Shown piece by piece: positions 18,001 through 56,138 of a DNA stretch of 64,000 nucleotides. The notes beneath the pieces are model-generated. The model saw nothing but the letters and a program-made list of their open reading frames with translations. It was not told the DNA's origin and ran no database searches. A program made the translations under genes and the position numbers. This DNA is from Mesaphorura yosii (Eukaryota > Arthropoda > Collembola > Poduromorpha > Tullbergiidae). Position 1 is the stretch's first letter; the number at the start of each line of letters is the position of its first letter. The stretch spans positions 62,001 to 126,000 of the forward strand of contig WIXG01000224.1 of the NCBI GenBank assembly GCA_009869945.1. Direction: 5' to 3'.

Positions 18001-21000
18001 GGAGTTGGAAGGTTTTCCGAGACCGAATACTGAAATGCAGAAAAGCCAAACTTCACTACGCATTAAACTAACCCAATTTACTAGTATGCATTGCACGAAC
18101 CGATATGACGCAGGACGCAGCAATGTGGCTGTGTTAACTGCGGCAGATCTAATTCTAGTGTGTCAATATTTGGAGACTCCAACTTGGATTTACCATATTA
18201 CGCAGTTTACACGACTGGCCGAACAGGCGAAAGAAGGCCTTCGTATTTACTTTGAATTCTACTTCACTTCTTTCCGTTTCTAGTTTATAGAGACCATAAT
18301 ATTTGTCTTATATATCTCATAATATGATCCAATCAGAAAACATACGCACAAGGGACACGTGTGTGGGTGTCTGTATGGCTTTTCTCTTTAATAAGTAAAC
18401 AAACACGAATTACTTTATAATTGCGCTTTATTATTAAAAACTCTACTCAAAGCCACAAAATGCCCGCGTCACGCCTTACAATATTCAATTTACGCGTAAT
18501 GTCCTGCCATTCGTGCTGCATTCAAATGACTCCTAATGCCACATGAATATTATTGAATTGACCTTGCTGTGGCAGTACAGCCCTTGGAATGCGAAAACCG
18601 GTAGGGTAATTCGCGTGCGTACATGCAAGAAGAGACTCTAGAACTTATTTGATGCGATGACTCAGGCTTCTGTTAATTGCAGCCATGCATTATACTTCTG
18701 CTGCAATTATTCTAAGCCCCACTCGACTTGGCCATTACGATGGCGAATCTTCTCCCGCACTGCGCCCGTATTCGCAATAATAATGACTTTATAATCTGTA
18801 TCTTGCATGTCGTAAATTGTTGTTGAATTACCAGCTTGGGCGAAGGCGAGGGTGGAGATGCATTAAAGTCATTTCAAGAAAATTCCTAATTGCACTTGGG
18901 GTCTGGACAAAATGTCCATGATTGCAATTCCAATTCGCGAGTTGTATACCAGATGAGACTCATGCTCAGCACTGTTTTGAGAGTCTTGAGACAATACGCG
19001 CAAAGCGAGGGCAAAAGAAAATGAGAAAGCACTTCTTCGTACGTGCACGGATACGAATGAGAATTTCGTCAGAGCAAAAAAGGTATTAACTTGAGAAACT
19101 TTCTTCGGAATGAGCGCATGCTATCAAATGCAAATAAAAATGAAAAATGCGTGAATGCGATTACAGACGCATCGCAATAAAATCGTGTTTCAAGTTGAGG
19201 TAAATGGTTTGGCACAAATAGGCTCTTCCCATCTCTCCTCCTGCGCCTTGTTTTGAGTTATGACGTATTTCGCATTAGTAATTGGAAACTTGGAGCTAAG
19301 AATGAGTATCTTTACCGCGTAGATTATCTTATATTGAAAACTTTCCTCACGCTTCAAGCACACCACACGATTTTTAAGAAGTCTTTTAATTCAAATTACC
19401 AGCAAATGGCAACCATTTTCTTTTTTATTCTCCAGTATCGGCGCTGTCAAGCGGCTCGCATAACTCAAACGCCAAATCCAGCCTAAGAAGCTACCATTCA
19501 TCCCTCGCCAGCAAGAACCTCAACAACAACAACGACGACAACGGATTCTGGGAACAACCCTTTGCCAAACCATATTTTGAGAATTCGACGAAGCGCGATG
19601 TGCTCGCCACAATTGGACAAACTGCATATCTCAACTGCCGGGTTCGGAAGCTGGGCGATCGAGCGGTAAGTCGGCCTAAATGCATTTATTGAATACAAGC
19701 AGAATACAATCGGCACGTCATACAATTTAATAATTTACAAGTCATCGACTTTAACGACAGCTTTTCCAAAGTTTTTACCCTGCAACATTTCGACAAAAGC
19801 CTTCGGTGCATGCTCGATCCCTTCAGTTACAGTTTCCTTGTATTTAATCGAGTCCGACCCCTTAGCCAGTAGTCCACTCAATGCTTTGATGGCCTGTGGA
19901 AGGTACTTTGGAGCATCGTCGGTCACCACGAACCCCTCCATACGAATTCTTTTCGTAATGACTTGGCTGAGGTTGTAGACCGCGTCTTGCTTGTCCATTT
20001 GATTGTACTGGGAAATCATCCCGCAGACAGCGATCCTTGCAAAATCATTCGCATTCAGCAGCACCGCGTCCAACATCTTCCCACCGACGTTCTCAAAGTA
20101 AATGTCGATTCCATCGGGACAGGTCTCCTTCAGAATCGCGTTGTAATCTTCGTACTTCTTGTAATTGAATGCTGCATCGAATCCTAGTTCTTTAACCAAA
20201 TAGTCGACCTTCTCCTCACTGCCAGCGGAGCCAACTACGCGTAGGCCAAGACTCTTGGCGTACTGACCAACAATGTGACCAACAGCTCCAGCCGCTGCCG
20301 AAACGTAAATAGTTTGCTGTTTTCCATCCGGGTGCTTCAATGGTTCGCATATTTTGTGTAAGCCGATGTAAGCAGTAAGGCCAGGCATGCCCAAAATACC
20401 TACAAAATGATTGGGTTCGGCTGGCTTTAGCTAAGTCTGCAATTTTATGAAGGAGTAATGCGTCAGCATCTTACCCAAATAATACGAAAGTGGAATTTGT
20501 GACTTCTTAGCATTTGGAATGACTTTGACTTCCATTCCACTCGCCGTGTTCACAACGGTGTACTGTTCCCAATTGGCAAAGGCCAAGACCACCTCTCCCA
20601 CAGCAAACTTTGCCGCATTGCTCCGTACAACCTCACCCACCACTCCGCCAGTCATTGGCTTACCCGGCTCGGCAGCTGGGAAGTACGATTTGACTGAAGG
20701 ATCCCGCAAGCGAGCCCTCATGTACGGATCCACGGAGATGTACAAGTTTCGAAGGAGAATTTCATTCAGCTTCAGCTCCACATCTTTTATAACGATTGTA
20801 GTCTTCTTGATTTCGAAATCCTTGTCCGGAACGGGCAGTCCCGTTGGGATTTTCTTATAAATGACTTGGACGTTCGTCTTAAACGACATGATTATAGAAC
20901 TGAGGTTTACGATTTAGAACAGTTGTTCGCAACGTTCTCCAAGAGAAAACTGATTAAGGCGTAGTGTTTCATTACATAATATATGAAACAATCACCAGGG

Positions 21001-23031
21001 TTGAAGTACTGTGGTTATCTTTTACAAGGCTTCCAACCAATGAAGTTCGTAATTCGACCAACATTGTACCAATCGAGAATAGCCTTGCACGATTGACCTT
21101 TAACTGTGTTCTTATCTCCTGTTCTCTCGTACCACGTATCATATGATCACCAACTCAAAGCTGACATTCCATTCTTTCAGGTCACCGTTTGTCAGCACAT
21201 AAATAATAATAGCAATTAATAATGACAAACTATGAACCGAAATATAGAATGCAAATATTCCTTGATAAATAATGATAAAGAAATCGTTTCTATGTAGGTG
21301 TCTTGGATCAGGAAGCGTGACCTCCATATTTTGACGGTGGGCGTGCTGACTTACACTGGAGATCAGCGCTTTCAGTCGTTACACTCAGATGGGTCAGACG
21401 AATGGACTCTGAAGATTAGTTCAGCGCAACTGAAGGATACTGGAACATACGAATGCCAAGTATGCTAACATTTTATGCAGTCAGCCCAAGTGCGGCGAGT
21501 TAAACAAATTCCTAGAATTGAGCATTATGTCACTTTATAGGTGAGCACGGAACCAAAAATCAGTATGGCATTTCATCTCAATGTTGTCGGTAAGTTCTGC
21601 TACTAAATCTTCGCTGCACCCAAATCAAGACATTTGCATTGTTTATAAAACGTCAATTTGTCAAATCAACTGCACCCACACTGCATTGAGGAATTAATTG
21701 CGATCCGGAGCCTGTTTCGACTCTTTACTGTCCAGACTGATGGCGCGTAATTAATCCTTTCTCGTAGTCCAAGTCCAAGATCTATAAACTGACAGGAGAC
21801 AAATTGCACTCTTTCAGTCTCATGCCACGACAGCGAACGCTAGACTTTAGCACCCAAGCCGAGGCCCGATGGTGCTAAATTTCGTCTTGTATTCTTGATT
21901 CCAGGATCCTACGCTCTATAAAATCGATTCATTCAAACCCAGCGCGAGAGGCAGGCGCCTTCTAATTCTATTATAAAATATCGTTCACTAATTCAATTTC
22001 CATCTCGTAGTCTCGCAGGCGGAAATTCTTGGTAATTCTGAACTTCATTTAAAATCTGGAAGTGACATCAATCTAACGTGCATTGTGAAGCAAATTCCCG
22101 AGCCACCAACGTACATTTATTGGTACCATGGCTCGACAGTCATCAATTATTCACAGCGTGGAGGTGAGTGGCCGTAGTTAACTTGAATAGCACGCGTACG
22201 CTCTGCAGCACAAGAAATTAATCAAACACTAACGTGACGGCGCGTTGCCTACAACGCACTTCATCTTTCTTCAATTTCCACTGAGTCAGTGTCAAGTGCA
22301 TTGGTTTTGCGGATACCGGGCGCATTACCCAACCGAGAACAGACCTCAGAGTGACAGCTTCCAATGTTCCCATGTCCAATACCGCAACTCACCGATGCGT
22401 CTGCATTGCACTGTACGCATTGTTTGAATTTGTCTGCAGGCATCAACGTGGTTACCGAAAAACAAACCCGAACTTCACGTCTCCTAATTTCAAAAGCTCA
22501 GCCCAGTGACTCCGGGAATTACACTTGTTCACCGTCAAATTCAGAGTCAGCGTCCGCTTTAGTCTACATACTCAATGGTAAGTGATAGTGATTTCTTGCT
22601 TTTCCCACTGCCTATGCCCATTTGTCCAAGTCCAGTTGTCCGTTGATGATGAATGTGAGCACGACCACAACAGACGTCGAAGGGAAAAGTCAGATGATGT
22701 CACGCCCGATTTTGTCTCCCCTAACTTCAAACATATGATGCACTTAATTTGAAATGACGTGTCCCACACTAATTCGCCCTTCGATTCTCCATGGCCCGTA
22801 ATCTCCACATATTTAATGCAAGATCAATTTCTTTGCTCTGCCGTAGGTGAACATCCAGCCGCCATGCAACATGGAAACAATCACGCGGTACCTTTGTCGC
22901 ATTCTTCGCTAATTGGAGCTCCTTCTATCAACAGCTGGGGTTTGCAGCAGGTTCTAGTCTTCACAGTATTAGCTGTAGTGCACTTTGTCAACAGCGGCAT
23001 AATCGCAGCAGAGTTTACAGAATGCAGGTGA
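6007..23031 (+). CDS. dpr: Defective proboscis extension response (dpr) family two-Ig cell-surface protein
   Basis: Seven exons (6007-6118, 19436-19665, 21298-21459, 21541-21589, 22011-22163, 22440-22577, 22847-23031) join in matching phases to give 342 residues. Residues 1-30 form a signal peptide. Ig1 spans about 90-185 (Cys105, VSWIRKRD at 115-122, YEC with Cys167). Ig2 spans about 186-283 (Cys208, Trp222, GNYTC with Cys265). A hydrophobic tail (about 317-336) suggests GPI or membrane anchoring. Dpr proteins bind DIP partners on neurons and help specify synaptic partners. The IRKRDLHILTVG stretch and the GEHPAAMQHGNN linker are hallmarks and look closest to the dpr8/9/21 type. N-glycosylation sequons include NST, NLT and NYT. 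Intron 1 is 13.3 kb. Intron 2 contains a reductase gene on the other strand. Assignment of exon 1 rests on its signal peptide and matching phase; extra 5' exons are possible. Confidence 0.9.
6119..19435 (+). other. dpr intron 1, 13.3 kb, non-coding
   Basis: The first dpr intron runs from GTAAAT at 6119 to a pyrimidine-rich acceptor ending CTCCAG at 19435. No exon resembling a known family was seen on either strand. It holds the perfect inverted repeat at 9342-9379 and a short (GAT)5 run near 12648-12662. Long first introns of neuronal adhesion genes commonly hold enhancers, but I cannot point to a specific one. Confidence 0.5.
9342..9379. repeat. Perfect 15-bp inverted repeat with 8-base loop
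   Basis: TGTTTACATTACATG at 9342-9356 is the exact reverse complement of 9365-9379, separated by GTCATGAT. Each arm contains TGTTTAC, the core bound by forkhead proteins. A short direct repeat (ACATAGAAGCA-like, twice within 9313-9337) lies just upstream. It lies in dpr intron 1. It could be a paired transcription-factor site, an RNA hairpin, or a remnant of a small foldback element. Confidence 0.75.
19685..19690 (-). terminator. Polyadenylation signal of reductase copy 1
   Basis: TTTATT on the plus strand reads AATAAA on the minus strand, 45 bases past the copy 1 stop codon and only 20 bases from the donor of dpr exon 2. Confidence 0.5.
19735..20889 (-). CDS. NADP-dependent alkenal / prostaglandin reductase-like protein, copy 1
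   Basis: Two exons (20889-20475 and 20399-19735) give 359 residues. The enzyme family (zinc-independent medium-chain reductases: PTGR1, 2-alkenal reductase, CurA) uses NADPH to reduce the C=C bond of enones and enals, so a role in clearing reactive aldehydes or eicosanoids is likely. Seen: DPYMRARLRDP near the N-terminus, the nucleotide-binding AAAGAVG, GSAGSEEK for the NADP phosphate, FENVGGKMLDAV, and CGMISQYN with the active-site Tyr. The single 75-base intron falls in the Gly codon of YYLG, as in the other two copies. The gene lies wholly inside dpr intron 2 on the opposite strand. The substrate cannot be read from sequence. Confidence 0.88.
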
Positions 23032-23513
23032 CAATTCAAATTTAGGACAAAAGTTCCGATAATAGATGACTGAACTGCTTTGGGTGGGACAAATGCTAGT
23101 TTTTAATTATATTTTTGTATTGAGACGTACGTTGTGTCATAGCTTAAGTATAGATTATAGGGCGATATAAATCAATCCATGAACTGGAAGGAATTCCGAT
23201 ACAGTTTTAGAAGTGGAGAATTCAATAAATAACAAAGACACTCCAAGAATTTAGACATGCTCAGACAGAATCTGTAATTTTCTCGTGTTCACGCTCACGG
23301 TCAGACCCAAGTCGTAGATTTCACTGGAAAATTTCTTTGTAGTACGTAATACGCAACCTAAATTCCAAAGTCACGGCTCAAAGTCAGAGAACGATGTCTT
23401 AATTCGTTTCATGCACTGGGGCAGAAATATTTCTAATTGTGTCCAATTCTCCGACTCGTTCATGCTCATTGTGAAATTCTTTGTTTTGAACGTATCATTT
23501 CACGAACCGTGTA

Positions 23514-23519
23514 AATAAA
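23514..23519 (+). terminator. Polyadenylation signal of dpr
   Basis: A canonical AATAAA lies 483 bases after the dpr stop codon. Another, earlier AATAAA occurs near 23223, so alternative 3' ends are possible. Confidence 0.45.
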
Positions 23520-23552
23520 ATCATGTACAAAGTACAAAAGACAATGGCTTGA

Positions 23553-23558
23553 TTTATT
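23553..23558 (-). terminator. Polyadenylation signal of reductase copy 2
   Basis: TTTATT on the plus strand gives minus-strand AATAAA 84 bases past the copy 2 stop. It faces the dpr signal at 23514 across 33 bases, so the two transcripts probably overlap at their 3' ends. Confidence 0.5.
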
Positions 23559-23641
23559 TCGTGATTACCGAACACTAATTCCTAATTGCAAATCGCGAAA
23601 ATAAAGAAAATCAAATCGACAGACCAAAACTTGAACGTGGT

Positions 23642-24800
23642 TCACAAATCTGCAATTTTAACCACAGCTTTACCGAAATTTTTACCCTGTAACATATCCA
23701 CGAGTGCTTTCGGTGCATTCTCCAGACCCTCAGTCACACTCTCCCGGTACTTCAGTTTCCCTTCTTTCAACAATGATGTCAGTGTTTTAATGGCATCTGG
23801 AACATACTTCTTTCCTTCATCAAAGACAATGAACCCTTCCATTCTGATGCGTTTCGTGATAAGAAAGCCCAGCCCGTAAATCGGCTCAGGATTGGTGGGT
23901 CGATTGTACTGAGAAATCATGCCACAAACAGCGATGCGTGCGAAATCATTCGCATTGGCAAGAACAGCATCCAGCATTTTACCGCCGACGTTCTCAAAGT
24001 AAATGTCTATTCCATTTGGGCAAGTCTCCTTTAAAATTGTCTTGAAATCGGTGTGCTTCTTGTAATTGAACGCTGCGTCAAAGTTCAGCTCCTTCAGAAG
24101 ATAGTCAACCTTGGCGTCATCGCCTGCTGAGCCGACCACGCGAAGACCGAGGCTTTTCCCATACTGGCCGACTACTTGACCCACGGCACCAGAAGCTGCG
24201 GATACGTAAAGAGTTTGCTGCTTGCCGTCCGGATGTTTCAACGGTTCGCATATTTTATGAAGACCAGTGTAGGCGGTGATACCTGGCATTCCAAGGACAC
24301 CTAGAGAGAAATGGAACGCGCGTAATTGAGCTATCAATGGAAATGGTAGCGTATAGAGTTAAATGAAATGCGAGCTTACCCAAATAGTAAGATAATGGAA
24401 CTTGCGAAGTACGAGCATTTGGAATGACTGTGACTGCATAAAATGCATCAGCACTAGCGTTCACAACAGAATAATTTTCCCAGCTCGCGTACGTGACGAC
24501 CACGTCACCTTCCTTGTATTTTGGATTGTTGGACTTGACCACTTCTGAGACGACACCTCCGAAAAATGGTTTCTGTAGTTCGGCAGCGGGAGCGTACGAC
24601 CTGATCTTCGGGTGTCTCATTCTTCCCCGCATGTATGGATCCACGGAGAGGTAAATGTTGCGTATGAGAAGTTCATCTTGTTTCAACACGACTTGCTTCA
24701 CATCAATAGTGGATTTCTTGATTTCGAACGTCTTATCGGGGTCAGGTTGGGCTCCAGGAATCTCCTTATAAATGACTTGGGTGTTTGGTTTAGCCGACAT
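23642..24800 (-). CDS. NADP-dependent alkenal / prostaglandin reductase-like protein, copy 2
   Basis: Exons 24800-24380 and 24300-23642 encode 359 residues beginning MSAKPNTQVIY. Seen: LSVDPYMRGRMRHP, the dinucleotide-binding AASGAVG, GSAGDDAK, FENVGGKMLDAV and CGMISQYN. Function is as for the family: NADPH-dependent reduction of activated C=C bonds. The intron position matches copies 1 and 3. A probable 5' UTR intron runs from GTAAGT near 24997 to TTCCCTGCAG ending at 24843. If that intron is retained, an in-frame ATG at 24884 would add 28 residues containing three Arg and no acidic residue. The 3' end converges with dpr. A 61-base stretch is identical to copy 3. Confidence 0.88.
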
Positions 24801-25071
24801 GACGATGGATGTGGTGATGAAGGATCTGCTGCGTGGTTGATTCTGCAGGGAATGATACGAGCCACGATAAATACACGATGGCATGGAATTTACAAGGAGA
24901 GTCCACAGTTTCTCCCCTTTCAAATTCAATTCAAAATTTTTGTGATGATAGCCCCTGCCCTGAACCTTTAAGTCACTGTGAAATTCTGCGTACTTACCTT
25001 GCTTTGGAATTGATGAATAAGTCGAAGCTCGCAACGGCAGCTGGACCTGGAAATTATTTTTTGCACTTCTG

Positions 25072-25678
25072 ACACTAGCACTGGACTGCGACGAAAGATC
25101 GATTGTGAATACATTTGACTGGCCGGGTTACACCTGCTAAGTTTTGTAAATATCCTAATTAGCTCGGCTTCTGCAAAGCAGCGCTCTCAAGCTAACAAGT
25201 TAACTGGCACGGGGCTTAAGTGGTACAACACGCGCTCTTGTCACAATTCATCAGTGAACACGAACCTCAGTGCACTCGCATCGCGATATTCGTTCGTGAC
25301 TGTTTTAATCTTTAGTTTGGACTGTGAACTTAGACTTTGCCCGTGCAAGCGACCGGAGTTGATAAATAATACCGGCGAACTCTTCATATGAGCTCCTGTC
25401 ACGTGAAATTGCTATACATTCTGCATTCTAGTAACTCTCTTCTATGTCATACACGTTCGAAAATGGCCTTGACTTTTGTTTTCTTTAAATACTCCAAATA
25501 GGCTATGCCATATGCGAGCCAGATGCATACAACTGTGAGGTTCTTAGCCACTAGCCGCTGAGAGAACACGTGCTGTGTTTATGCTATGTCCAGTGCACAA
25601 ATTAGTAGCTGCTGTCAGTCGTATCTGCTGAAAAGATATCAGACGTATGCAATTACGCGGCTCGTTCATCAACATTGA
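25072..25678. other. Spacer between reductase copies 2 and 3
   Basis: About 0.6 kb without a recognisable gene. It should contain the promoter of copy 2 and the 3' flank of copy 3. No clear TATA box was identified. Confidence 0.35.
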
Positions 25679-25684
25679 TTTATT
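25679..25684 (-). terminator. Polyadenylation signal of reductase copy 3
   Basis: TTTATT on the plus strand reads AATAAA on the minus strand about 100 bases past the copy 3 stop codon. Confidence 0.45.
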
Positions 25685-25784
25685 AAGCCGAAGGAATTAT
25701 AGCTAATTAATAATCAAAAAGCGATTTGTGCATAAATCTCTTAATACATCTCGAAATTTGTTTAATGGTAATAAATTGAATCCT

Positions 25785-26924
25785 TTACAAATCAGCAACT
25801 TTGACGACTGCCTTTCCCAAATTCTTGCCTTGCAACATCTCCACGAACGCCTTTGGTGTATTTTCAATACCTTCGGTCACAGTTTCTCTGTACTGCAATT
25901 TTCCTTCTCGAAGCAACGACCCAAACGTCTTGGTAGCTTCCGGGGCATATTTGTTGAGGTCATCCGATACAATGAAACCCTCCATTCTGATGCGTTTCGT
26001 GATAAGAAAGCCCAGCCCGTAAATCGGCTCAGGATTGGTGGCGCGGTTGTACTGCGAAATCATACCACAGACGGCAATGCGTGCGAAATCGTTCGCGTTG
26101 GCGAGCACAGCTTCCAGCATTTTACCGCCGACGTTCTCAAAGTAAATGTCTATTCCATTCGGGCAAGTTTCTTTGAGAATAGTCTTGAAGTCGTCGTACT
26201 TCTTGTAATTGAATGCTGCATCGAACTTCAGCTCGTTCAGAAGGTAAGCGACTTTGTCATCCTCGCCCGCTGACCCGACCACTCGTAACCCAAGACTTTT
26301 GGCGTACTGGCCAACCACAAGACCGACGGCACCGGCAGCTGCAGATACAAACAAAGTTTGCTGCTTTCCATCTGGGCGCTTCAATGGTTCGCATATTTTG
26401 TGGAGGCCGATGTATGCAGTTAGCCCCGGCATTCCAAGAACGCCTGCAATTAGCATATTCTAAACTTAGAACATTAGTTCATGAATTGCATGAATTCTGG
26501 ACTTACCCAAATAGTACGACAGCGGAACCTGCGATTTTCGAGCATCTGGTATCACTTTGACCTGGAACCGTCCTTCCGCGTTGCTGTCGACCACGGCATA
26601 TTCTTCCCAGCTTGCAAAGGTTACCACGACGTCACCCTCCTTGTACTTTGCACTGTTTGACTTGATGATCTCTGCGACAACTCCGCCAGCCATAGGTTTC
26701 CCGACCTCGGCTGCAGGTGAGTAGGATTTGATGGACGGATCTCTCATTCTTCCCCTCATGTACGGATCCACAGAGAGGTAAAGATTTCGGATGAGAAGTT
26801 GCCCGGGCTTCAGGTCGAAATCTTTCACAACAATGGTGGTCTTCTTCACTTCGAAAGCCTTATCAGGCACTGGAAGCCCAACGGGAATCTCTTTGTAGAT
26901 GATTTGAGTGTTTGTCTCTGACAT
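25785..26924 (-). CDS. NADP-dependent alkenal / prostaglandin reductase-like protein, copy 3
   Basis: Exons 26924-26507 and 26443-25785 encode 358 residues. Visible landmarks: LSVDPYMRGRMRDP, AAAGAVG at about 174-180, GSAG at 196-199, FENVGG at 241-246, and CGMISQYN with Tyr271 as the likely catalytic residue. Human PTGR1 is about 330 residues; these copies are slightly longer and contain the GIDIYFENVGGKMLDAV-type block, which to me looks nearer the plant/fungal double-bond reductases than vertebrate PTGR1. A minus-strand donor (AAACAG, then GTAAGATG near 27030) suggests a 5' UTR exon upstream. It is the first gene of the three-copy array and is divergent from the CorA gene. Confidence 0.88.
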
Positions 26925-28517
26925 TATGACGTTTGAGGAATGCTGTTGCGAGTATGACGATTACAAGTTGACAATTAAACAGCTAATTGCCAAAGACTGA
27001 AACAAGCTAATTTTGTCGTCATCTTACCTGTTTACTTTACTCGTGCTATCAATTCGGCTCACTTGCGGACAGGAATGGGTGGACGTGTGACGGCTAGAAG
27101 TTGTCTTTAATGGACTGCTGTGTTGATGATGAGGATCCACCCGGCAACTATACGGCTATTATATGACGGTTCACACCACGCGAAACGCTATCAGGATGGA
27201 CACAGCACAATGACAATGCAAGTACGTGCTTGCAAGCAGCCGGTATATGTAACCTTTGGTCGTACTCTCCGGACTCTTCCCCTGGCACTCATGCACTGAA
27301 TTTATTGTACAATATACAGTATTACATCATATTAACTAAAGCCCATGATTATATTATGGTATGCTCCAATGCAAAGTCCGACTTCATGAAATGAGCAGGT
27401 TTTTGTGTTGGTGACCTTGAGTTGCCTTCGCACGAGGCCAATGTATGCTACAAGATATCGTCTATGGTCTCATCAGAGCAGGTGCAGCAAAAATTATGTA
27501 CACGAGTCCAATAAACAAACTCATTGGTTAATTAGATGGAATCAATAAAATATTTCACGACAAATCATCGCACTCTCCTTCGACTTGCGTTGACCAACTG
27601 CCTGGCTAATAGACAAGCCTGGTCAATGAAAACAACTTTGATACTTAAATATTGGAACCAAATGGATTGCATTGCCCTTAATTTTGCCAGTTTCCGGAAT
27701 GGCTTTGTTGCGCCAGTCTCATGAAACGAGAAAAAAACGCTAATTTTAGAAATCGTGAGCTGTCAGAATTGAAACTGCTGCTGCTGAGATGTCTTGGGAC
27801 TCCTTTTTCGATGTGTACCATCGACATGAATTCGTTCCAGCGACCAATTTCCCTTGTCAATTTCGACTTTTCGACGAGGCTGTGGCACTTTGACGAACTG
27901 AACCTCGGTACCGCTACAGCTGTTAAAAATATACTGATAACTTCTTGATTCTCTCATCTTGCAAGCGGCGCCGGTTGATTCATAATTCATTCGCAATGGA
28001 TTCAACTAAACTTTCGTCAAAAGAATTTAGCATAAACGGAATAAACTGAAGCCTTATTACTAAACTGCTTTCTCATGGCCTCGATGCTCAATTTTAACGA
28101 TGGCTAATGGCTAATGCTATGTTGGAGCAAGTTTGACCTTATTCAGGACCGGGACATACACAACTCGAGCTGGACAAAGAAATCGATCGCCCAATGTGTA
28201 TCCTTGCATCCTTCATATTTTTGTGGGGATCATCTGTGTTTACATGCTCGTAAGAAACAAATGCCAACAACCCCAAAAATCCTCGAAACGCAAACGGGAG
28301 GTGTAAGAATCTTTTAAACAGTTACGTGATAATCTAGTCAGATAATTGCTGGGTCAGTCCATCACAGAGACAATCAGTGGAGTGCAGCGCACAACGTAAC
28401 GCAGCTATAGCCTTCAGTTATCAGTACAGTAAGAGGAAAAAATGTGAACAAGAATGGACTGATTGATTGACGGACCCTCACCTGGTCATCCGGACTTCGG
28501 ATTTCAGCTCCACCGAC
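26925..28517. other. Divergent intergenic region between reductase copy 3 and the CorA gene
   Basis: 1.6 kb with no recognisable coding exon apart from the likely 5' UTR exon of copy 3 near 27030. A TATA-like minus-strand word (near 27155) and an initiator-like TCAGT (near 28395) are weak promoter hints. Confidence 0.35.
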
Positions 28518-30375
28518 ATGATATTAAGAACTTTAGAAGCTGTACACTTGAGACTTGTGTGCCAAGGTGTATGTTTGACGTGTACCCGTCGTGTGTCCTC
28601 GTTAGAGCTGCCTCGGCTGACTGGAAGTCTCCGAAGAAGTACTGGTGGAGCAGCCAATGCCATTGGTACAAGGCATTTGAAAATATTCAGATCGCTAAAG
28701 ACCTGTTCGAGCTTAGGGAGGACTCAGACATCTACAACTGGTGTGGGATCAGGATCCGGTGGAAATGGCAGTGTCGGAGGTAAGCAGTATTTTAGAACAG
28801 GAACAGTATACAGGAACTAGGTATCGCCCTATCTTTGTGACCAAAAACAGAATCGTGTCCGAAACGAAGTTTTGTGCATTAACGTTACACGGCTTTTCAT
28901 GATGTAGATGGAGATGCCACTAAACAGAAAGATAAGGAGGACACCGCTTTATCCGAAATAATAACTATTTATGAGAGGATGACCAAGTCCAGAACCCAAG
29001 AAACAGAAGGACTAATTTTCAGACCGTCAAAGCATGGTGCGCCAAATAGGGCAGACCTACATCAGGTGGAAGAGGAGATGTTAAGCCTGGTCCCAACGTT
29101 TGACGAAATAGCCCAAATTACACGATCTCAGCAAGAACATGAAGAGAATGCCTTGAAATCACCAGCAGCGGCTAATGCTAGTCTCCATGATTTCCAATCA
29201 GTACCTGACCACCATCTTCTGGACTTCAACAAGTTCAGAAACTTTGAGTCAAAGCGGTACACGTTCTTTTCATCAGCCACCAACCTAATTCAATCCGATA
29301 CCCTAAGTTCGCTGTCCGCTGACTACGTTGGACTACTTAAATCAAAATCATATTGGCTGAATATCATGAATCCAACAGAAGAGGACATTCGAATTCTGCA
29401 CACTAGTTTCAACGTACATGATCTGACGCTTTCCGATGTTCGAACACCCAACTCAGAAGAAAAAATTGAAATCTACAAGCACTACACATTTGTATCCCTA
29501 AAATTGATGTGTGAGACTGCCGACGTCCACAGTCATCACCAGAAGCCATTCGATAATGACTTCAACATCCTGCTGTTTAAGGACTTTGTGATCACCCTTC
29601 ACAATACAGAATGGTCGGGTATTAGGGACATTCTTGGATTTCTTAATCTGCTCTGTGTCCGCACAAAGTCACCGCTTGAGTCACACTGGATTCTCTTCTC
29701 CGCACTGACAGAGTTGAAGCAAGATGCAAAATTCTTGTTTGACAAGATGGAACCAGAAATCAATCAAGTTCGCATCGCATCCAAGACTATGGTGGAATTA
29801 TCGGGAATCATGAAGCAAATATTCGACATGGAATTTCAAATTTACATCCTGAACCGGTTCATCAAGCCGAAAATTAATATTCTTAAGCTCCTTGAGACAA
29901 AATACGACAAAAGGTTGAACAGAGCAACAGCAAAACTTATCCGCGACATTCATGAAGACCTGAAAGACATCTCACATGAAATGGAAGTTTTCAGCCATAT
30001 TCTCGAGAGATCTCAAGACACCGTGCTGGGTCTGGTCAACGTGGAGAGATCAAAAGAAGCGAATGATGCAACGCGTGTGATGAATCGCCTGAGCCAGATT
30101 GCCATTGTATTCCTCCCAATACAAGGTAAATAATAGCAAGTCTGCTTCCATCACTTCCTCGACAATGTACTCTTATGCTTTTGTAATTCGCAGCTGTGGC
30201 AGGATTTTTTGGCATGAATGTGGAAGTACCTTTTCAACACGAGCATGGAACTTTCTCCTTCTGGGCAATCATATGCACTTCAACCATACTGGCGTTTACT
30301 GCATTTTTCTTAAGAAAATTCATTCTCCTTAAACAATTCGCGAAAGAAAGCCAGAAGCCAGTTACAATGAAATAA
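28518..30375 (+). CDS. CorA-type Mg2+/divalent-metal transporter, fungal Alr/Mnr2-like
   Basis: Three exons (28518-28779, 28908-30125, 30194-30375) join in phase to give 553 residues. Residues 1-110 are low-complexity and Ser/Arg/Gly-rich. A CorA cytosolic domain follows: KRYTFFSSAT, WLNIMNPTEEDI and the conserved HDLTLSDVRTPNSEEKIEIY block, then long helices. Transmembrane helix 1 is at about 482-499, ending in the pore signature GMN (500-502), and helix 2 at about 516-533. Such channels form pentamers that admit Mg2+ across a membrane. Animals normally carry mitochondrial Mrs2; this block order is that of fungal plasma-membrane/vacuolar Alr and Mnr2 proteins. Exon 1 was chosen because its frame and donor fit; translation could instead start at the in-frame ATG at 28979. 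The last intron separates the pore from the rest; if retained, a stop at 30131-30133 removes GMN. The family is firm; a fungal origin is inference. Confidence 0.87.
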
Positions 30376-30393: not shown

Positions 30394-30399
30394 AATAAA
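30394..30399 (+). terminator. Polyadenylation signal of the CorA gene
   Basis: AATAAA begins 19 bases after the TAA stop of the CorA reading frame. Confidence 0.55.
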
Positions 30400-32050: not shown

Positions 32051-34618
32051 CCCATTGGCTCTCGGTCTTTCATGCGTCATCACAGAACGAGATCATGTTA
32101 CTTCAGTTACTTGGCACCTCACGCTCGGCTTTCATTGTTAATGACTTTTTAATGAGTCAGGTACGTGTCGAGCGGAAAGTTAGTAGCGAACCATTCATAA
32201 CTGGTTAATTTCTTGCGCTCTTGAACTCATGAGCCTTTAGCTGCTGGATGATTCATTTCTGGTTTTCCGCTAATACTCACCAATTAACCAACTCCACCCT
32301 TGCCTTGGACGTGGCTGAAATGTCAACGATTACGAAAAATTTTGAAGATGTCTCGCCATTTCTGGGAACTCGAACGCTGTCGAAAACGAAAACTCCACGT
32401 TCTTACATTAAGATTAGAGATTAAAACTGTTTTTGCTGATTAGTATCTTTGTCGATTTATGTCTCGAGTCGCATTACATCAACACCAGACTTTTTATCCT
32501 GTCTTTCGTCAGTTGTCATCGTCAGCCAGGGTCTCAAAAGAAAATGTGCTTAATTGGTAGTTCACATGCAGTATTTCATTCGACATAAATAAAGATAAAT
32601 ACGGCGGCAGGTCAGTCGAGGCACAAACTTCGCTAATGCTCAAATAGAATTCTTAACTTTTTGCATGTTTTTGTGGAAAGTCTTGGAGGAACAACAACAA
32701 TGGAATGAGGTTAAATACATTCACCTCCAACTCACTCTGGCCAAGAGTATGAAATGTGGGTCTTGCAAAAAGTCGAAACAAAGCCACGCCGAGACTCGTT
32801 TTGGTTTGGTTCTTGTAATATTCATTCATTCGTACGTACGCGTATTCCGAGTAATTCCTTTGAGAGAGGTGCAAACAAAAGAATTTCTGTTTCTGCTGAG
32901 AGCAGCCGAAGGAAAAGAAAGTTTTAGAATTCTTATTTTCAAGATGCGGCGTGTATTTGTAGCTTCCAGCGTCTTGAGCCTGGATGGAACAGAGTCAGAG
33001 TCAGAAAGCGAGAGGCCGACTTACTTACTTCTTTGTTCTTGTTGTGTGCCTGTCAGGCGAGCGCAACGCCTGCCCTGCCCCGCCTGAGCCTGAGCTGTCA
33101 GTGGAATTGAATATTGAATTAAATTGAATATGCCATTGTTGCTTGGACTCCTTGCAGTAATCCCAGTCGGTTACAAGGAAAAGGCGAAAGGCGATGGCCT
33201 GAGCTTCCAAGAGCAATGGCCCACAGAAATGTTGCCGATGGCTCGGTCAAGTACTCCATTACAGGAGATGCAAACACAGCAACCAACCAGTTAAGATAAG
33301 ATTATCATACGCGTACGCTCTTTTCCCAGAAAATAAGAAGCTGTGCGTAAAGAATTCGCATCAAGGCTACAGGTGCTGTACAATTTTGCATTTTCCAGTA
33401 ACCCAAATTACGCGCCCTTTCAATAGATCAAATTGCACAGGTACAAGGTGGACCTCACAGGTCATTCTTGTGGTTTATTATTGTAGCAGTATTCGGTGAG
33501 ATGTTTCAAATTCAAAAGTAACTTTTCCCCGAGAAAGAAACACAACGCATTAACAATTCGCTGTGGATCATGGAACACGAGCACCACACTGCACAGAAAA
33601 GTTCCTTACAGCCTGCTCGTCGTACTCTCTCTCTCTCTCTCTCGCTCGGCTTGTACGGTGTTCCATGTGCGTACGGTGCGGTGTGGTGTTACTCGAAAAA
33701 GAAAGTCTTTCGGTCGTTGTCATGATCCGAGCTGATATTTGGCGTAGCGTAGCGGTGGTGGAAGTCGCTTGGTGTGGCAGTCAAACTTCAGTCTCATTCC
33801 TGCTCTTTGTTGGTTCAGACAGTCTGTCTCTCCGATTCCGGTTCATCTCATCTGGTTTCTCGTGCAAGTCGGCGTTTTTCCGCTGCGGAGTGTCTGCTCG
33901 CTTCTACTCAGTCAGTAAATTTGAGACAGAAATCTCATTATAATTAGTCACAGTTGAAAATCGAATTGTGAAGCTCTTCCGAAAAATTGCTCCAGTTAAG
34001 TCTCGGCAAGGCACGCTGAGACAAATTGTGTTCCAAATAGTGAACTTCGAGCCAGTGAACGTATTCCTAAAAATAAATAGGGCATCAGTCGAGTTTATGA
34101 GGAAGTTCCAAACTAGCTTGATTTTGTTGCTGCTTCGCGCTAAGAAAGTGTAAATGGAGTTTGGTTTTGTGACAAGTGAACTCGATTAAGGTTACTGAAC
34201 CAAAACCGAGCGCAAGAGACGTTGATTAAATATTTACATCTGCCAGTGTACGGTGAGAAGGAACAAATCACTCGAAGTGTTGCTAATGTCATTTCATTTT
34301 CTCAAATTATCATTTGCGGATTTGAAGCTGGTTGACTGACGGGAAGTGAGATTTATTCATAAGCACGCAGATTTCCTCGTCAAAAGGGATATTGCGATTG
34401 CTTTCGACTTTCACCGTTCGCTCGTGCGTGTGCATTGACCTCCAGGATGAAGACATTTCTCACCACCTCGCGTCTCGTTAGTGTCGCTCTTAAAGTCAAA
34501 ATTAGAGGACCCGAAGCAGGTTAATAGTTAACTTGGTTTGATTGGCTTGGCTGCCACACCGGAAACAGCATTTCACCACTGTCAATTACACTGCTGTTCA
34601 TTGTTAAACAGTCGAACA
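32051..34618. other. Intergenic DNA and probable upstream region of the gene starting at 34619
   Basis: 2.6 kb without a recognised gene. The right half contains a pure CT run and several TCAGT initiator-like words (for example near 33909), consistent with a promoter and 5' UTR for the exon at 34619. Confidence 0.35.
33625..33642. repeat. (CT)9 microsatellite, GAGA-type
   Basis: Nine uninterrupted CT units. On the minus strand this is GAGAGAG, the target of GAGA-factor-like proteins, and it lies about 1 kb upstream of the signal-peptide exon at 34619. Confidence 0.7.
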
Positions 34619-34739
34619 ATGGTGCAAGTTCCCAGAATCGTGAGAGGAGCAGCTCACGTGTTTGTACTCGCCCTGTCGCTTGCATTATTCAGTCCACTAA
34701 TGGAGCAGTGTGGAGCCAGTCCCGGAGGTTTGTCTTCAG
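34619..34739 (+). CDS. Signal-peptide first exon of a secreted or cell-surface protein (partial gene)
   Basis: The exon encodes 40 residues plus one base. A basic start (MVQVPRIVRG) leads into a hydrophobic core (VFVLALSLALF) and a cleavage-like QCGAS region. It ends TCTTCAG before GTAAGC, a strong donor. The phase is 1, the same as the signal-peptide exon of the dpr gene on the same strand, so a second dpr/Ig-family gene is possible. No matching Ig exon was found in the remaining 29 kb, so the rest of the gene probably lies beyond the window. The product is therefore not identified. Confidence 0.5.
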
Positions 34740-37700
34740 GTAAGCTTTGTTGATGTTGATACAGTTTCATAGTTCAGAGTCCAGTGACTCGAGACTCAAG
34801 GGTAAATTGCACGAGTCGCCAGCATTGCTATGCATCATGCATTTGTATTTTGTATTCATATTTGCGAACCATTATCTTTTGCTTCTGCGTATTCCTAAGG
34901 TCTTTGTCTTTGCCTTTGACTTGCCTCGAACTCAAACCACAAATTATGATATAATTTATTTACACACGGTATTATATGACTTGTCTTGTGCTACAGCACT
35001 ACAACCCGAGAATTTTCATAATCCATGATTCGAGTTTCTCTTGTAAACACCATCAAACAGATTCGGACGGCGATAAGAATGAATGGTATACACGCCTCGA
35101 CGGCTTGTAAACATTTCTTCGAAGGTGGAGGCGGATTATTGAGTCTTCTAAACAACTAAATGAATGTGCTACGATACCACTACCGATCGACGGTATGTCT
35201 TAATATTGTATTTAAGGTGTACGCTACGAAGGAAAGACGATCTGAACCGTTCATTAGGCGGCGACGGAGACCAGACACTAAATTAGCCGATTCTTCAGCT
35301 AATTAATTGTATAGTAGCAGTAGAATGTGCTGTAATCCAGGTTAGTTTTAGAACGGAAGTTTTAGTGTCGGAGATGAAATCGCGAATGGCACGTTTAAAT
35401 TACATGCTGCACAGCGCAAGCGCAGCAAGATTTACACACCTGATTTGATTGATAAGCAGCCACCAGCAGCGGGGCAATTACAGCATAAAGATGTGCGTCG
35501 AACACGGCACGTCGCAGCGCACTCGCAGGAATCCAAACTCAATTAAGTTTACTCATTTCCCATTAAAACCTATAAAAGCGACCGAACCACGTCGTGGAGG
35601 AGAAAGCTCGTTCATTTCATTTCATTTTCCCCAATTATTTCGTTGCATGTTTTATGGCAATTCTGCCCTAATGTAATTCTAGCACTGCAATATACACAAA
35701 AGAGATGTACTAGGCTTTCTCCTTCCTGCTCAACAATAATAGACTTCATGTTAATCGTTTTACGATAATCATGTTGCTGCCTCAGCTCAGCCGTGGGTCT
35801 ACCCCGTTTCCTGCCACACGGCCGCCTGACTTGTAAATGTTTAATTTATTGAGTAAAGAAAGGGTTCATCAGCGACCGGAATTTTATTGCCGCGCGTAAA
35901 CGAGAACGTAAACCATTTGTGGGCAGAGAGATAAATTCTGCTCTCGGCTGCAATATTAACTCGTATGCGCATGTAGTAAAGACGATTAGCAAATCGAGTC
36001 GAATCATACGAAAAGTCATAAAGTCGTTGTTATCAGGACACAAAAGTCATTTCCAGTGCACACTATTAAAAGTGGAGGGTGAATTTATTACAAAAGCCGG
36101 GGCAGAATTCTAAATGCTGCTTGTAAACAGGCGTGCATTCGTTTGCGTTGCTCTTCGCTGTGTTGTGCATATTTTGTATTTGTAATACAAATGCTAAAGC
36201 TAATACTTGTATTGATATTTGATATTGACAATAGTGCAAGTGCGAGATTAATCGAAAAGGTGGTGGATTTTCATTAGGGATATTACAAAATAGGGGCTGA
36301 TAATATTTCTGGTACGCGAAAGAACGCCAGGTCTTGGATTTTTTCCTACAATATCGCCAGAGCCATGTTGGTCGCTCACCAGAAACATCATTTCGATGCC
36401 GCACGTCTTGTAGTTTGATTGCTTTCGATATTGTTGCTAAATAATAAATGAACGATCAAAAACAGCAGCAGAAAACAAAACCAACCGTGAGCCGTGAGAA
36501 CGAGAGAACATGAACATTGAACACTGGCGACTGGCAATGTGTAATACATGGACAGTCTCCGGACAGAAATGAGTTTCGAATTGTACATCGCCCTGCCAAA
36601 CCACAACACGTACGAGGACTGCATGCACGTTCAATGACCAGTTCTCTGACTCTGGCCGGACCAAGTTTATTAAAAGTACATGACAACAATATTTTCTGAT
36701 TACTTGTGGAATTTTGTCCTCCACTTCACTCCAAATCCAATAACTTGCACCGCAGCAGCGAGCCCATTTCAGCGAACTTGAATCGTGCGTGGGCTGAGCC
36801 ATGAGCCCGGACTTCACAATTGGTATGTGCATGCTGTAGTGTTAATAATAATAAACGCCAAAGATTATAAACATTTTTATACTCTGCAATAACATTTATT
36901 GAGAGTATTATTGGCGGTGGTGAAAGTTGCCTTCAAATCCTGCCAAAAAGTGAAGCAGCGTGGCTGTGCTGTGGATCCGTTTGCTTTTCTGCTCTTGCTC
37001 TTGCACGCTTTTTGCTCTAAAAATGATGAACTGATACAGTAATGGCAATCATTGTCTGTAAGGGCACTCGTTCCTGTTGTTACTTTGTGCTCGCTCGCAT
37101 TGCGATTGCCTTTGCCAATGGCTGTGATCACTTACGACGGCCTCATAATACTGCCTGCCTGCCAGCAGAACGCCTACCGTATTATATCCCAATAAAACGT
37201 ACAAAAACAAAAACACACTCATGCGGTACTTAAAGCCAAAATTGGAACTATTTCAGTTTCTGAGGCGCCTCGTTGCACGTACGCGTACATAGCAAAGATG
37301 ACAGAGAGAATGAAAGAGCAAAGTGAAAGCGGAGACCAAGAAACAGAAATTTTCTCCGCCTTCTTCGTACACGTACGAAAATGGTGCGGGCGAAAGGAGA
37401 GCTGGAAAAAATGAAACATAAAATATAAGAAAAAATGGGTTCTTCCGGTTGCCTGGCTTTCTCCTTTATACTTTATTCGTGTTCTCAACTCACTGGCGAA
37501 ATTTACTGTACGCCTGTAATTTGGCATTCGATTTTTTCGAAGAGAAGTGAACAGCAGTTGAGTGTGATGTATTCTTCTGTAATCGTAATAATAATGGAAA
37601 GGTATAGCAGTATGACTTATTACAACGTGCCAATGCCAAACCCAAGCCTGCCAGACTCCACTGCACTGAAATAATTGTCCACTGCTGCAACGGTTCATAT

Positions 37701-40700
37701 TTCACGATTCTCGAGGCTGGCACGGCCGGATGGGATTGCGTGAGTGGGAACCGATCGCCCGTAGCCCGAGATTTGCACCTCTTCGTACGGCGAAATGGTT
37801 ACAGTGCGCTTGATGGTGCTGGCAGAGCAATTACGACGTGCTAACCTGAAATTCAGGTTAAAGGTGGCGAATCTGTCAACACATTAATAGCCAGGTACCG
37901 ATTTCGACTTCGATTCACACGAGCATTCAGCCTTTGCATTCAGATTTTTGGATGCAAATAATGGGCTATTACGAACCATTCACAATTCACAAAGAACCAA
38001 TTGTGCGAATGAACGCGACCATCAATTCCTCTGACTATCTTTTATTACTCCTGCGCGCAATTCGCACTCACATCGGTGCAAAATGCGAATTTTATACGGA
38101 GAGAGATTTCTTTATATGTGTCCATTAACGAGTCGTCCCGCGCCGAGTCACGAGTCCCCACCACGCCACGGCCTGGCGCTTCACGTACCAGGCTTCGCTG
38201 CACGGAGCATAATGACATGGACATGTGAGAGGAAGAAAGAGATTTCAGAAGTCTCCTTTTAGCGTTTGATTTATAACCGTGTGACGGAAGTCAACTCCCA
38301 GCAAACCTAGCAGCAAGCGAGTATGTAAAAGGAATTTCCATATCAGATTGCTGCTTGCCTGTGCGTGTCCACTCAACTGTGTGAATTTACATGCGCTTTT
38401 ACAACTCATGTTCGGAATGAATTGTTCATGCCTCGCTTGGGTTGCGCTACAAGGCCAAAATAACATGTAAACATGGCGTAATGGTTGCGGGACAGCCATT
38501 TAGTGGGACCCCGAATATAACAAATTCGAATTTACGGAATTCCATTGTCCGCTGAAATTATAATGTGGGAATGGGAACCGATCTTGGCAGGCCGGCCCAG
38601 CCAGCGCATTCGCATCGGACTGTTGTCCTACTTTCACGTTTAGTGTACAGATCTTATCCACATAGATTTTGTATTGTTTTCTCATCGCGCAATGGTAACG
38701 GGAATGAATATGTGAAAGTCGAAAGTGTGATCATTAAGGCTTAAGGCGAAGGCTGGTGACGAGCTCTGCTCTGCTGCGACATGGAAAGATTCCTCTCACA
38801 AGTTCAGAGGACGAACGTAGAATCAAATGAACTCATTTATCTTCTTCCTGAATGACAAGTTGCACTTTGCAGAAATTGCATTGCATTGTGCATGGCGCGA
38901 CGTGGCGTGGAAATGCCCAGCTGCTCTCATCATTCCGTTTTATTGTTCTTTTCTTTCGGCTTACCTCGGACACTGCTTACAGATAAGAGCGGGATCATCA
39001 AGGAGATCAAATGGCAGAGCAAAACCACCTCATCCATTTCACAGCAAAGCAAAGCAAAGGCCGGATGAGCACGGATAACGCGAAGAAAGTCATATTTCAA
39101 TTTTTAAAGTGTTATTGTTATAAATATTATAGTAGATTGCAGGCGGAGGCGGAGTGCAGGAGCACGGAACATGTCGCAGGATACGGAAAGTTGTAAGGAA
39201 TGATAAGATGATACAAGGAACCACGACCACAATTTACAATGTATTCAATGACATTTATTTGGTCAGACATTACCCCACGATGCGACGTGCACCCTACTCG
39301 TGTTCGATGTATCCCGCACTATCGCACATCGCCTTGCCGTCTTACTTGTACTGGAACACCGGTTTCCATTCTCTGCTGCTGTCTGAGTGCAAAAGCCATA
39401 AAATGTAATGTATACTCCCGTAATAATATAAAATGAAGGAAAGGGTTCTTCTTGGCCATGGCCACGGCACAGCATAAATTCATAACTTAAACTGCTTTCT
39501 ATAATATCGCGAAATTGTGAGATCGAGCGCTTTGGCGATTGCCAATGCCGATGCAATGGAAGGACAAAGCAAAGGCAACGGTAAAGGCGAGTGCAGATTC
39601 CAAAATCTCTGAATCCTGTGTAGTGCTGTGCTTGGAAGGAGGAAGTATAAAATTGCATGGAATAATATTGAAGAAGTGCTCTTGGTTCTTGGCAAGTGTG
39701 AGAAACCTGAAGCATCATAAAATTTTCAACGCGCTACACCCACCGCACCGCAATCCTGGGCCGTGCCGTGATTTGATGCTGCTATTATTAGGCACTATAA
39801 AATTTAATTCAGAAATAAGATTACATTACACGCCAAACCCAAAACCAAAGCCAATACGCCCGAGCAATTTTCTGACACTGGCATTTTTGGGGTTTCATTT
39901 TCCAACACTGATACGATTTAATTAGATTTTCTTGAACGAGATTGCTTTCTTAACGCAAGGCATTCACACTTGCCATGCACTTTCTCTTGCCGTCATTCAT
40001 CTTTCAATGTTCAATTTGCTTTCAACTGCACTGCGTTTTGCATAACGAATGAAATGAAGAGCATTATTTTGGAAAAATGGAAGCTTGTCAACTTATCCAT
40101 CCTCTGTTACATACAATACGAAAGTGCTCTTTCAGTGTGCATGTCATAAAATTTTGGCCCAACAGACTAGTAACTTCAAAAAGAGTTAAAAGCGAGCTGC
40201 TTCTGTCCGCCAAAAAGGCGAAAGTCAGCTTGGTTCAATATCAGCTCAAGAAATATGTCAACATGGCGTAACAAAGGGCGTAATGAGTCTGAAAACGGGT
40301 CGTCAATTTCTGAGGCCATGCACTGCAATGGCATCGGACAGAAGCACTGGTCTGGTCAGTTAACTAATACAGGAGTACGAGAGAGATGTAAGGATTCAGG
40401 TTGAATGCGCAATTTATATTTTTATGTTCGAAAGGGCAAAGCTTTTAAAATACTCGACTTGAAACTTTTGCTGCCGGCAACGTGAAGGATGATTTCTTCT
40501 TTCCGTTCCATTTCGGACGCTACTGCAGTAAATCGATGATGAAACGAAACATGTTTCTGGTACATGTCAAATTCAATTATGGCATGGCAGAACACTGTGC
40601 GGTGTTGTTAGTTTCACGTACAAGCTGCTGGTTTGAATTTGAGAATCTGGGCCAACAGGCGGATGGACAGCTTTAACTTTTATTGGTGTTGAGGCCCAAA

Positions 40701-52700: not shown

Positions 52701-54779
52701 TCAGTTATTAAAAATTACGACTCCTTAATTAAGAAAGTTTATTCGGTTTCTTCATCAGACCACGCCAAGCATGCCCATAAAAGGCTAATGTGATTACAAC
52801 ATTAGCCCAGTAAACCGTAAACGGAAGAAGTACGCAGTAAAAATTAAATGCTCGCTCATAAAAGTAGGTCTTCAGCGTACAATTAATTACATGATTACAT
52901 AACTAAACTTGGGTACGGACGACATATGACACCACGACACCAGAACTCCAGAACGAGAAAGCCGTGCACAGCTGAATAATTGCTTGATTTTCTTGCGAAC
53001 GAGGTCGGAATTTACGAGCTCGAATTCCACACCCACGAAGACAAATTCTTGCACGAGCGTAGTACGGATTTCTTGCACTCACAAGTTTCCCACTGCCACT
53101 CGAATAAAAGGAATTTGCAACTACTCATGCTTTCCATCACCTCTAATTTCCAATTCCATTTTGTATTTATATCTTCGAAATCAAAGTGTAATTCTAGAAC
53201 AATGCTGTATCTTCTCCTTAAGCCCACGTCTTAAGTGTGTGTGTAGTATTTTGATCTAATTTCACGTCAGCACTGCTGTGTGTTCATGTCTGCTCCTGTA
53301 AGAAGAATTAAGAAGATGGTCTGGTATTTGAAGTGATGAAATTCTTTTTACTTTCTCTCAGGCCCGCTCAGCAGCGATGTCATGCCATGTGCTTGCGCTT
53401 GAGCTCTTCTCTGCAAAAGTTTTCCCAAAACGACACCTTGAGGATTAGAGAAAATGTGTCGTTTAAGAAAAGTTTCGCCTACACTTTTCTTAGTGTCATC
53501 TCCCACACTTACTGCCTCTGGAATTCTGCAATGCACCATGCGAAGTTCGGCAAACTTTTTCTCTGGCTCGAGATTCTGTCCTGTAGCGTAGCCGTCGTGG
53601 CGTGAACCGAGAGCGTAGTCTTATTATTGAAAAGAAATGGCAATGGCAATCACATCACAGGCCGAGATACAGGCCGTGGCAGTACTTTATTTGTAAAGTA
53701 TGTACTTACAAAACAAATGACATACTTTTTCGAGAAATGAGTATCACAATTTCCATCCAACTTCAACTAAAACTCCTACACCACCGACACTTTTCCCTTC
53801 AGCGCACTTCGGTGAAGCCTTTCTGCCTTCGCCTTTGATATTCCATACTTCAACTTGAATCAAAGCGTGACTCTGGCTCGGGGTTAGAATTGAGTAGTTT
53901 GAGTTTGAAGACTTCCTGGAATAAAGCTCAGCAACGTATTTGCACAATAAGTGGAATGGGAACAGGAAATGGGAAAACAAGTTTTCAATCAGGCAATCAT
54001 GTCGTGATACAATGCAATGCAATGAAATCGATCCTGGCCTCTGATCGCAGACTAAATACAAATGTCTTTGATTTATTGGGTTGCATTGCTGGATTGCACT
54101 GCGGGCAAGGCATGCAACAGAGCAGCAGTAACAATATTTATTGGCGCTCTGCAGGAGGTAGGACACTGGAGAGACCACTGACTGGCGACCGGAAGCGTAG
54201 CCAGGCACGGCGTACAAAGCGTAGATTGGCCGGGCAGTTGCGATTGTCGTGATGCCCTCACGTGTAGTCAGCCGTCGAGCCGAGTCGAACTGCATCATAA
54301 TTTGATGTCAAAGTTGCTGCATGTGGTGACCCCGTGCAGCGCGGTACATCCATCCAGTGATGCAATTTTGAACTCGACTTGAATAAATATACGAAAATGC
54401 GAACGAATGGTACAAGGACACAAAGGCCTTGGCAGTGTCACATTGGAAAGGTGACAAGTACAAATTAGCGTGCGAGAATGATGGTGGTGGTGCGGCGGTG
54501 AGAAAGTTCGATTCCACCCTTGATTCTCAAAACTCAAATTCTCTAAACCAAGTTTATTTTTCTTAGGTTATTCTCTAAATCAATACCATGAAAAGGTCAG
54601 AAATTATGAGATTATAAACACTTTTCAATTCTTATGGCAAAGCATTCCGCAAGCCTAACCTAAATTAACCAGCATCGTGACTTTTGACCTCAAAACCTGA
54701 ATCAGAGGCGTTACCGAAAGTTCGCATGTGGGCACATGATAAAAGTGACAATATCATGCTTCGTGGTTCTAGCTAAATA
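34740..54779. other. 20-kb intron-like, gene-poor stretch
   Basis: No recognisable family exon was found. Open frames up to about 185 codons occur on both strands, often overlapping, and look like the random background of this low-stop sequence. Exceptions worth testing are the splice-supported minus-strand candidate at 43120-44540 and short signal-peptide-like frames at 37049-37222 and 47629-47874. A cluster of GCATG words lies at about 50190-50412. Confidence 0.4.
43120..44540 (-). CDS. Candidate two-exon end of an unrecognised gene
   Basis: An exon at 44540-44442 (33 codons, flanked by an acceptor ending GTGTTAG and the donor AAG/GTGAGT) and an exon at 43293-43120 (57 codons and TGA, preceded by a long pyrimidine tract ending TTTCAACAG) are both phase 0 and can join. 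The product would end with a soluble segment (HFPVHDIIVEKAS... SQPPESSLKA). No start exon was found upstream and no family is recognised. Splice sites are good, but the stretches are short enough to arise by chance. Confidence 0.22.
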
Positions 54780-56106: not shown

Positions 56107-56116
56107 TTTATTTATT
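56107..56116 (-). terminator. Overlapping polyadenylation signals of acetyltransferase copy B
   Basis: TTTATTTATT on the plus strand gives two overlapping AATAAA words on the minus strand, 23-32 bases past the copy B stop. Confidence 0.55.
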
Positions 56117-56138
56117 GCAAAGTAACTTATAATACTAT

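Follow-up and report, generated by a model that had tools for sequence, protein, structure and literature searches.

Among eukaryotic CorA proteins the Alr1 group has been ranked as a second major branch (PMC3125163), and ALR/MNR2 proteins are treated as fungal (PMC13022745). The fungal protein MoAlr2 has 622 aa with its CorA domain at residues 310-617, and the residue preceding the GMN motif is F in ALR and W in MNR proteins (PMC4945025). In the account of one review, metazoa lack a conserved plasma-membrane CorA and have retained Mrs2 alone (PMC9276622), while Mrs2 is itself missing from most of the non-vertebrate animal lineages sampled in PMC13022745. Among arthropods, that study names Drosophila melanogaster alone in its model set, so that other arthropods went untested there. 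In titles and abstract openings we found no report of a non-Mrs2 CorA in arthropods, most subscription journals lying outside this coverage, and CorA does not occur in the main text of a paper on chimeras from horizontal gene transfer (PMC13389597). Here we analyse a 64,000-nucleotide stretch of the collembolan Mesaphorura yosii (assembly GCA_009869945.1, contig WIXG01000224.1, positions 62,001 to 126,000 of the forward strand; hereafter the window), which carries a CorA gene at positions 28518-30375. The reading we favour, and hold to be likely, is that this gene is a member of a native five-gene CorA (2-TM-GMN, that is, two transmembrane helices (TM) and a GMN motif) family and encodes a Mg2+-gated divalent importer, the family being old in the lineage and probably belonging to the eukaryotic Alr-like branch.

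An earlier note on this stretch had proposed a 553-residue, intron-containing CorA gene with a GMN motif. That three-exon model was reproduced: a frame running from the ATG at 28518-28520 to the TAA at 30373-30375, with exons joined through GT..AG introns, encodes 553 aa, and Pfam CorA (PF01544) matches residues 234-533 far above chance (E 4.5e-37, 128.4 bits against a cut-off of 27). The CorA gene model in the window is confirmed as real. Its parts are as follows.

28518..28779, + strand: exon 1 (residues 1-87, arginine-rich N-terminus; tentative), one of two splice-compatible ATG exons upstream
28780..28907, + strand: intron 1, GTAAGC..ATGTAG, phase 1, read from the sequence; similar phase-1 introns in paralogs G3 and G4
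28908..30125, + strand: exon 2, with N-terminal block, linker, alpha/beta CorA domain, stalk helix and start of TM1 (Pfam, alignment, predicted structure)
28937..28978, + strand: conserved N-terminal block EDTALSEIITIYER (five-paralog alignment; paralog match E 1.9e-4, G000:C224:90934-91107, window coordinate obtained by subtracting 62000)
29345..30312, + strand: CorA domain (PF01544), residues 234-533, split by intron 2 (Pfam match)
30008..30052, + strand: RSQDTVLGLVNVERS, containing a 7-residue insertion before TM1 (alignments)
30126..30193, + strand: intron 2, GTAAAT..TCGCAG, phase 1, immediately 5' of GMN; missing from four paralogs
30194..30375, + strand: exon 3, with rest of TM1, GMN loop, TM2, C-terminus and stop (paralog match E 5.8e-10, G000:C224:92166-92339, same subtraction)
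30211..30237, + strand: pore loop GMNVEVPFQ, read from the sequence
30394..30399, + strand: AATAAA polyadenylation-type signal a short distance past the stop, read from the sequence

The motif HDLTLSDV occupies residues 258-265, GMN residues 500-502, and a second hydrophobic stretch follows at residues 513-533 of 553, near the C-terminus. The predicted structure of 28979-30124 (mean pLDDT, the predicted local distance difference test score, 74.4) has the cytosolic CorA fold and is closer to CorA than to the Mrs2 proteins of yeast and human, and none of the five host proteins matches the MRS2-like Pfam model PF22099 at 1e-3. These results support the assignment of the window gene to CorA and not to Mrs2. 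The prokaryotic CorA equivalog model TIGR00383 gave 42.6-68.0 bits for the five proteins (exon 2 alone for the window gene), below its cut-off of 200.75. With Thermotoga maritima CorA (PDB 3jcf/4i0u) the host shares, besides the predicted fold, the GMN loop and residues D89, D253, D277, M291 and P303, all common to the five proteins, with L, V or I at the L294 position and L at that of M302. CorA binds its regulatory Mg2+ through D89 and D253, and M291, L294 and M302 form its gate. Identity to the T. maritima protein is, however, ~15-20%, and the host adds ~160-230 N-terminal residues and the 7-residue insertion before TM1. A weak tektin-like similarity in the stalk helix (window 29777-30041; PF03148, residues 378-465, below cut-off; PDB tektin-3) probably reflects the shared coiled-coil character of the stalk.

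From this likeness we infer the way in which the protein might work. It would most likely be pentameric, with an alpha/beta funnel in the cytosol, a long stalk helix, a pore-lining TM1, the GMN selectivity loop and TM2, through which Mg2+, with some leak of other divalents, would most likely enter the cytosol down the membrane potential. The channel would most likely shut once Mg2+ from the cytosol occupies intersubunit sites that correspond to D89/D253 of the Thermotoga protein, and the heptad insertion would add about two helix turns just inside the membrane.

Pfam and protein searches of the genome (93.0 Mb, 1127 contigs) returned the same five CorA genes on five contigs. Identity of the window gene to its four paralogs is 45-53% over aligned codons and reaches 60% with G2 in the best core stretch. 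Common to all five are the core, the loop GMNVxVP[FY]Q and, in the N-terminal part, the block E[ND]T[TA]L[TS]E[IL]ITIYE. Since the window gene is one of five paralogs, the CorA family is old in this lineage. The ratio of nonsynonymous to synonymous substitution rates (dN/dS) is 0.117 in the closest pair, G3-G4, and purifying selection acts there, where it is measurable; it is 0.138 for G1-G2 and 0.153 for G2-G4, pairs in which dS is already 1.9-2.7. Introns differ in position among the genes, lying just before GMN in the window gene, in TM2 in G1, and, in G3 and G4, ahead of the N-terminal block that also follows window intron 1; the sequence of G3 and G4 reads as phase 1 there, with a G|AT junction. 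A 54-row tree relating the host proteins to prokaryotic CorA unites all five in a single clade (100/100) whose branch measures 4.47 changes per column, with the window gene branching off first and the other four joining at 89/57, an unstarred node; the tree used 54 of 91 rows, Chitinophagaceae-type rows having been thinned, and its long branches make the attachment point unreliable.

A set of observations weighs against the favoured reading. All five host proteins have S at E88, T or I at D175 and T, S or G at N288; Q replaces T305; and F or Y stands in place of the loop glutamate E320 in 5/5, although the equivalent glutamate has been termed omnipresent in CorA/Mrs2 (PMC11919701). Because of these substitutions selectivity or gating may differ from those of known CorAs, with possible selectivity shifts at the loop and at T305. 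The input to the fold model consisted of the window exon with bacterial and phage CorA rows only, which may bias the model toward CorA. dS is saturated in the remaining paralog pairs, including every pair with the window gene, so selection on that gene has to be read from its conservation. A separate matter is the weak point of the gene model: the codon usage of exon 1 resembles non-coding DNA (-0.365 bits per codon).

This last value was set against open stretches of window 33000-53000, a region assumed to be non-coding: their mean is -0.237 (sd 0.10), and 33 of 41 score at least as high as exon 1. The training set comprised 11 of 13 pieces, two (G1 and one reductase half) having been dropped as out of frame. 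Given the codon usage of exon 1, the protein upstream of about residue 89 is uncertain. Two candidates with a fair-quality donor and a phase-compatible ATG emerged from 26950-28800, the exon 1 of the earlier model and a shorter one within it. The conserved block (residues 98-111) has no in-frame ATG unless an upstream exon supplies it, so some first exon probably exists. The earlier idea of an added low-complexity N-terminus proved too simple, one N-terminal block being conserved in all five paralogs.

The predicted N-terminus bears on a further possibility, namely that the window paralog is mitochondrial and substitutes for Mrs2, its four relatives acting in other membranes. Its first 72 residues hold 12 K/R and 2 D/E, as against 5-11 K/R and 8-11 D/E in the four paralogs. 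The genome, in which matches to CNNM exist, gave no Mrs2 match, in an exon-by-exon search that gave no match in any control genome either and so does not establish absence; the lack of Mrs2 in most non-vertebrate animal lineages sampled (PMC13022745) points the same way. Yet exon 1 is itself doubtful, and the hydrophobic moment of the N-terminus is ordinary, being reached by 12 of 28 open stretches of 33000-53000, even though equal basicity and amphipathicity together occur in 1 of 28. We consider a mitochondrial role improbable. The fuller proposal, that this arthropod lineage supplies its magnesium through an expanded Alr-like CorA family whose window copy gained a mitochondrial leader and replaced Mrs2, is a speculation to which we give slightly less credence still.

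The fungal-type plan suggested earlier agrees with what is described of MoAlr2 (PMC4945025): going by the size of that protein, fungal Alr1/Alr2/Mnr2 proteins resemble the host in combining a long N-terminal extension with a C-terminal CorA domain, which begins at residue 310 of 622 in MoAlr2 and at residue 234 of 553 in the host, where ~89 of the preceding residues are uncertain. The residue before GMN, F in ALR and W in MNR proteins (PMC4945025), is F for the window gene itself, L for two of its paralogs and M for the other two. Sequence comparison of the host CorAs covered prokaryotic, viral and PDB sequences, and no entry named Alr appeared among the 16 PDB sequence matches or the 50 PDB fold matches listed. 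In fungal Alr proteins the region preceding TM1 is presumably similar, and the loop presumably of the form GMNVxVP. Bacteria often carry a loop of the form GMN[VI]x[VI]P[FY]Q, so the pore loop is unusable as a fungal mark.

The frequency of that loop in bacteria is also what might suggest a recent transfer from a bacterium or phage. A scan with the pore peptide gave 299 stretches and 252 confirmed relatives, the best 80 of which are mostly from Bacteroidota and Bacillota and reach 29-46% identity over the last 60-70 residues. A bacterial subgroup (Chitinophagaceae, Heliobacterium, Geobacillus, Peribacteria) shares the loop with the host, but its core identity to the host is 16-25%, it has neither the insertion nor the long N-terminal extension, and most of its full-length frames run to 310-383 residues. 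Core identity to prokaryotic and phage CorAs in general is ~16-25% (17-25% in the best BLAST rows, 16-24% in alignments), with 25-34% over shorter stretches of 67-138 residues. Searches by tblastn matched 453 plasmid records (19-24% identity in the 40 listed) and 13 phage records (18-23%). The 7-residue insertion between stalk and TM1 is present in 5/5 host proteins and in 0/96 aligned prokaryotic and phage CorAs. Those 96 were made up of 86 proteins (78 chosen for the loop motif and 8 from plasmids or phages) and 10 further ones; two of 80 bacterial loci had been dropped (<300 aa), as had two of 12 loci from the phylum of the Peribacteria genome, neither of which yielded a 250-aa open frame containing GMN or GIN. 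Searched with the host profile, 379 genomes of that phylum include 18 that reach 1e-12; their best score, 77.6 bits, is the top one among the prokaryote genomes searched (T. maritima CorA: 61 bits). None of 395 Bacteroidota genomes reached 1e-12, a strict limit passed by only one of three known Bacteroidota matches, and when two conserved host peptides were run against 84,980 species, with a single genome for each, none of the 166 stretches obtained was a relative.

Large phages do carry CorA: L016 (LR756501.1) and L025 (IMGVR 3300028283) encode CorAs with a loop, GMNIKIPFQ, that resembles the host loop. A host-profile scan of viral contigs returned no relatives; subsequent scans turned up a single CorA-bearing phage contig, together with three pattern matches due to chance. 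PHROGs gave one weak, unnamed family for paralog G2 and none for window exon 2. The low core identity and the absence of the insertion from all 96 proteins argue against a recent bacterial source, and a recent transfer from either bacterium or phage appears very unlikely. The earlier note had spoken of a fungal or other microbial donor; the claim of horizontal transfer is unproven, and a recent bacterium as the source is its unlikely part.

The data accord both with vertical retention and with ancient transfer from a eukaryote. Under the former, an Alr-like CorA of the opisthokont ancestor would have disappeared from vertebrates and the model invertebrates and lived on in this arthropod lineage. 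The five paralogs with a common N-terminal block and gene-specific introns favour such a history, as do the rank of the Alr1 group as a second major eukaryotic branch (PMC3125163) and the naming of D. melanogaster as the only arthropod in the model set of PMC13022745. Many separate losses would be needed, however, and we regard this history as a serious possibility somewhat short of probable. The alternative, an older-dated form of the earlier proposal, is that a fungus or some other microbial eukaryote donated the gene long ago, after which it duplicated to five copies and gained introns; this would accord with reviews that give metazoa Mrs2 only (PMC9276622) and ALR/MNR2 as fungal (PMC13022745), and with the CorA cores of the four paralogs, which are intron-free open frames save for the one intron in TM2 of G1. 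Other host genes look intron-poor too, three reductase genes having one open reading frame (ORF) break each and tandem fatty-acid-binding-protein (FABP) genes seeming intronless, so few introns prove nothing about transfer; the diverged paralogs with mostly saturated dS would also place any transfer far back. We see ancient acquisition as possible but rather doubtful. Intron gain, which had been suggested earlier, is plausible within the family, the pre-GMN intron being missing from the four paralogs. Taken as a whole, the earlier reading is partly supported.

That the gene might be a contaminant or an assembly artefact is exceedingly improbable, in line with the earlier dismissal of contamination from the neighbouring genes. 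It has GT-AG introns, its base composition matches the rest of the window, its four paralogs lie on other contigs of an arthropod genome, two of them (C298 and C341) with recognised neighbours, and a reductase gene of host type lies 1.6 kb away on the opposite strand:

25788..26924, - strand: prostaglandin-reductase-like gene, nearest recognised neighbour, third of three tandem copies and divergent from the CorA gene (C-terminal half 25788-26459 by scan, N-terminal half by likeness to the copy at 20434-20913)

The three tandem copies occupy window 19738-26960 (-), each appearing as two ORFs. Elsewhere in the window lie an ecdysteroid-kinase-like gene and two adjacent acetyltransferase-like (GNAT) genes (54818-56893, -; matches under curated cut-offs), and the ~20 kb of 33000-53000 hold no gene-like ORF in the ORF list, no library scan having been made there. 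Hemocyanin/phenoloxidase and ecdysteroid-kinase-like families mark arthropods. The former has 26 matching pieces in the genome, some with internal stops or introns, and looks expanded; the best two PDB chains for one piece bear the deposited label 'TK receptor', followed by arthropod hemocyanins and prophenoloxidases. Ten flanking or neighbouring ORFs were scanned (nine from three paralog contigs, C204 among them, and one from the window), and Pfam matches fell on two of the paralog contigs: C298, with LRAT and Diedel, and C341, with a GH18 domain of chitinase type and, below cut-off, domains of glutamate-receptor type. LRAT (PF04970) and Diedel (PF13164) share a single 331-aa open frame (L113:2613-3605, G000:C298, near paralog G1), a pairing we know of from nowhere else. 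The tandem FABP genes L006 and L007 (G000:C506) are apparently intronless and encode ordinary FABPs. Such FABPs and the hemocyanin/phenoloxidase genes favour an arthropod host over a tardigrade, the first candidate; a COX1 search of the assembly returned no match.

In summary, a five-gene CorA family in an arthropod contradicts, as a general rule, the view that animals keep Mrs2 only, as put forward in PMC9276622, and it makes the question of whether this branch was retained or regained testable. If confirmed, it would mean that the magnesium physiology of this arthropod group depends in part on a type of channel that vertebrates lack.
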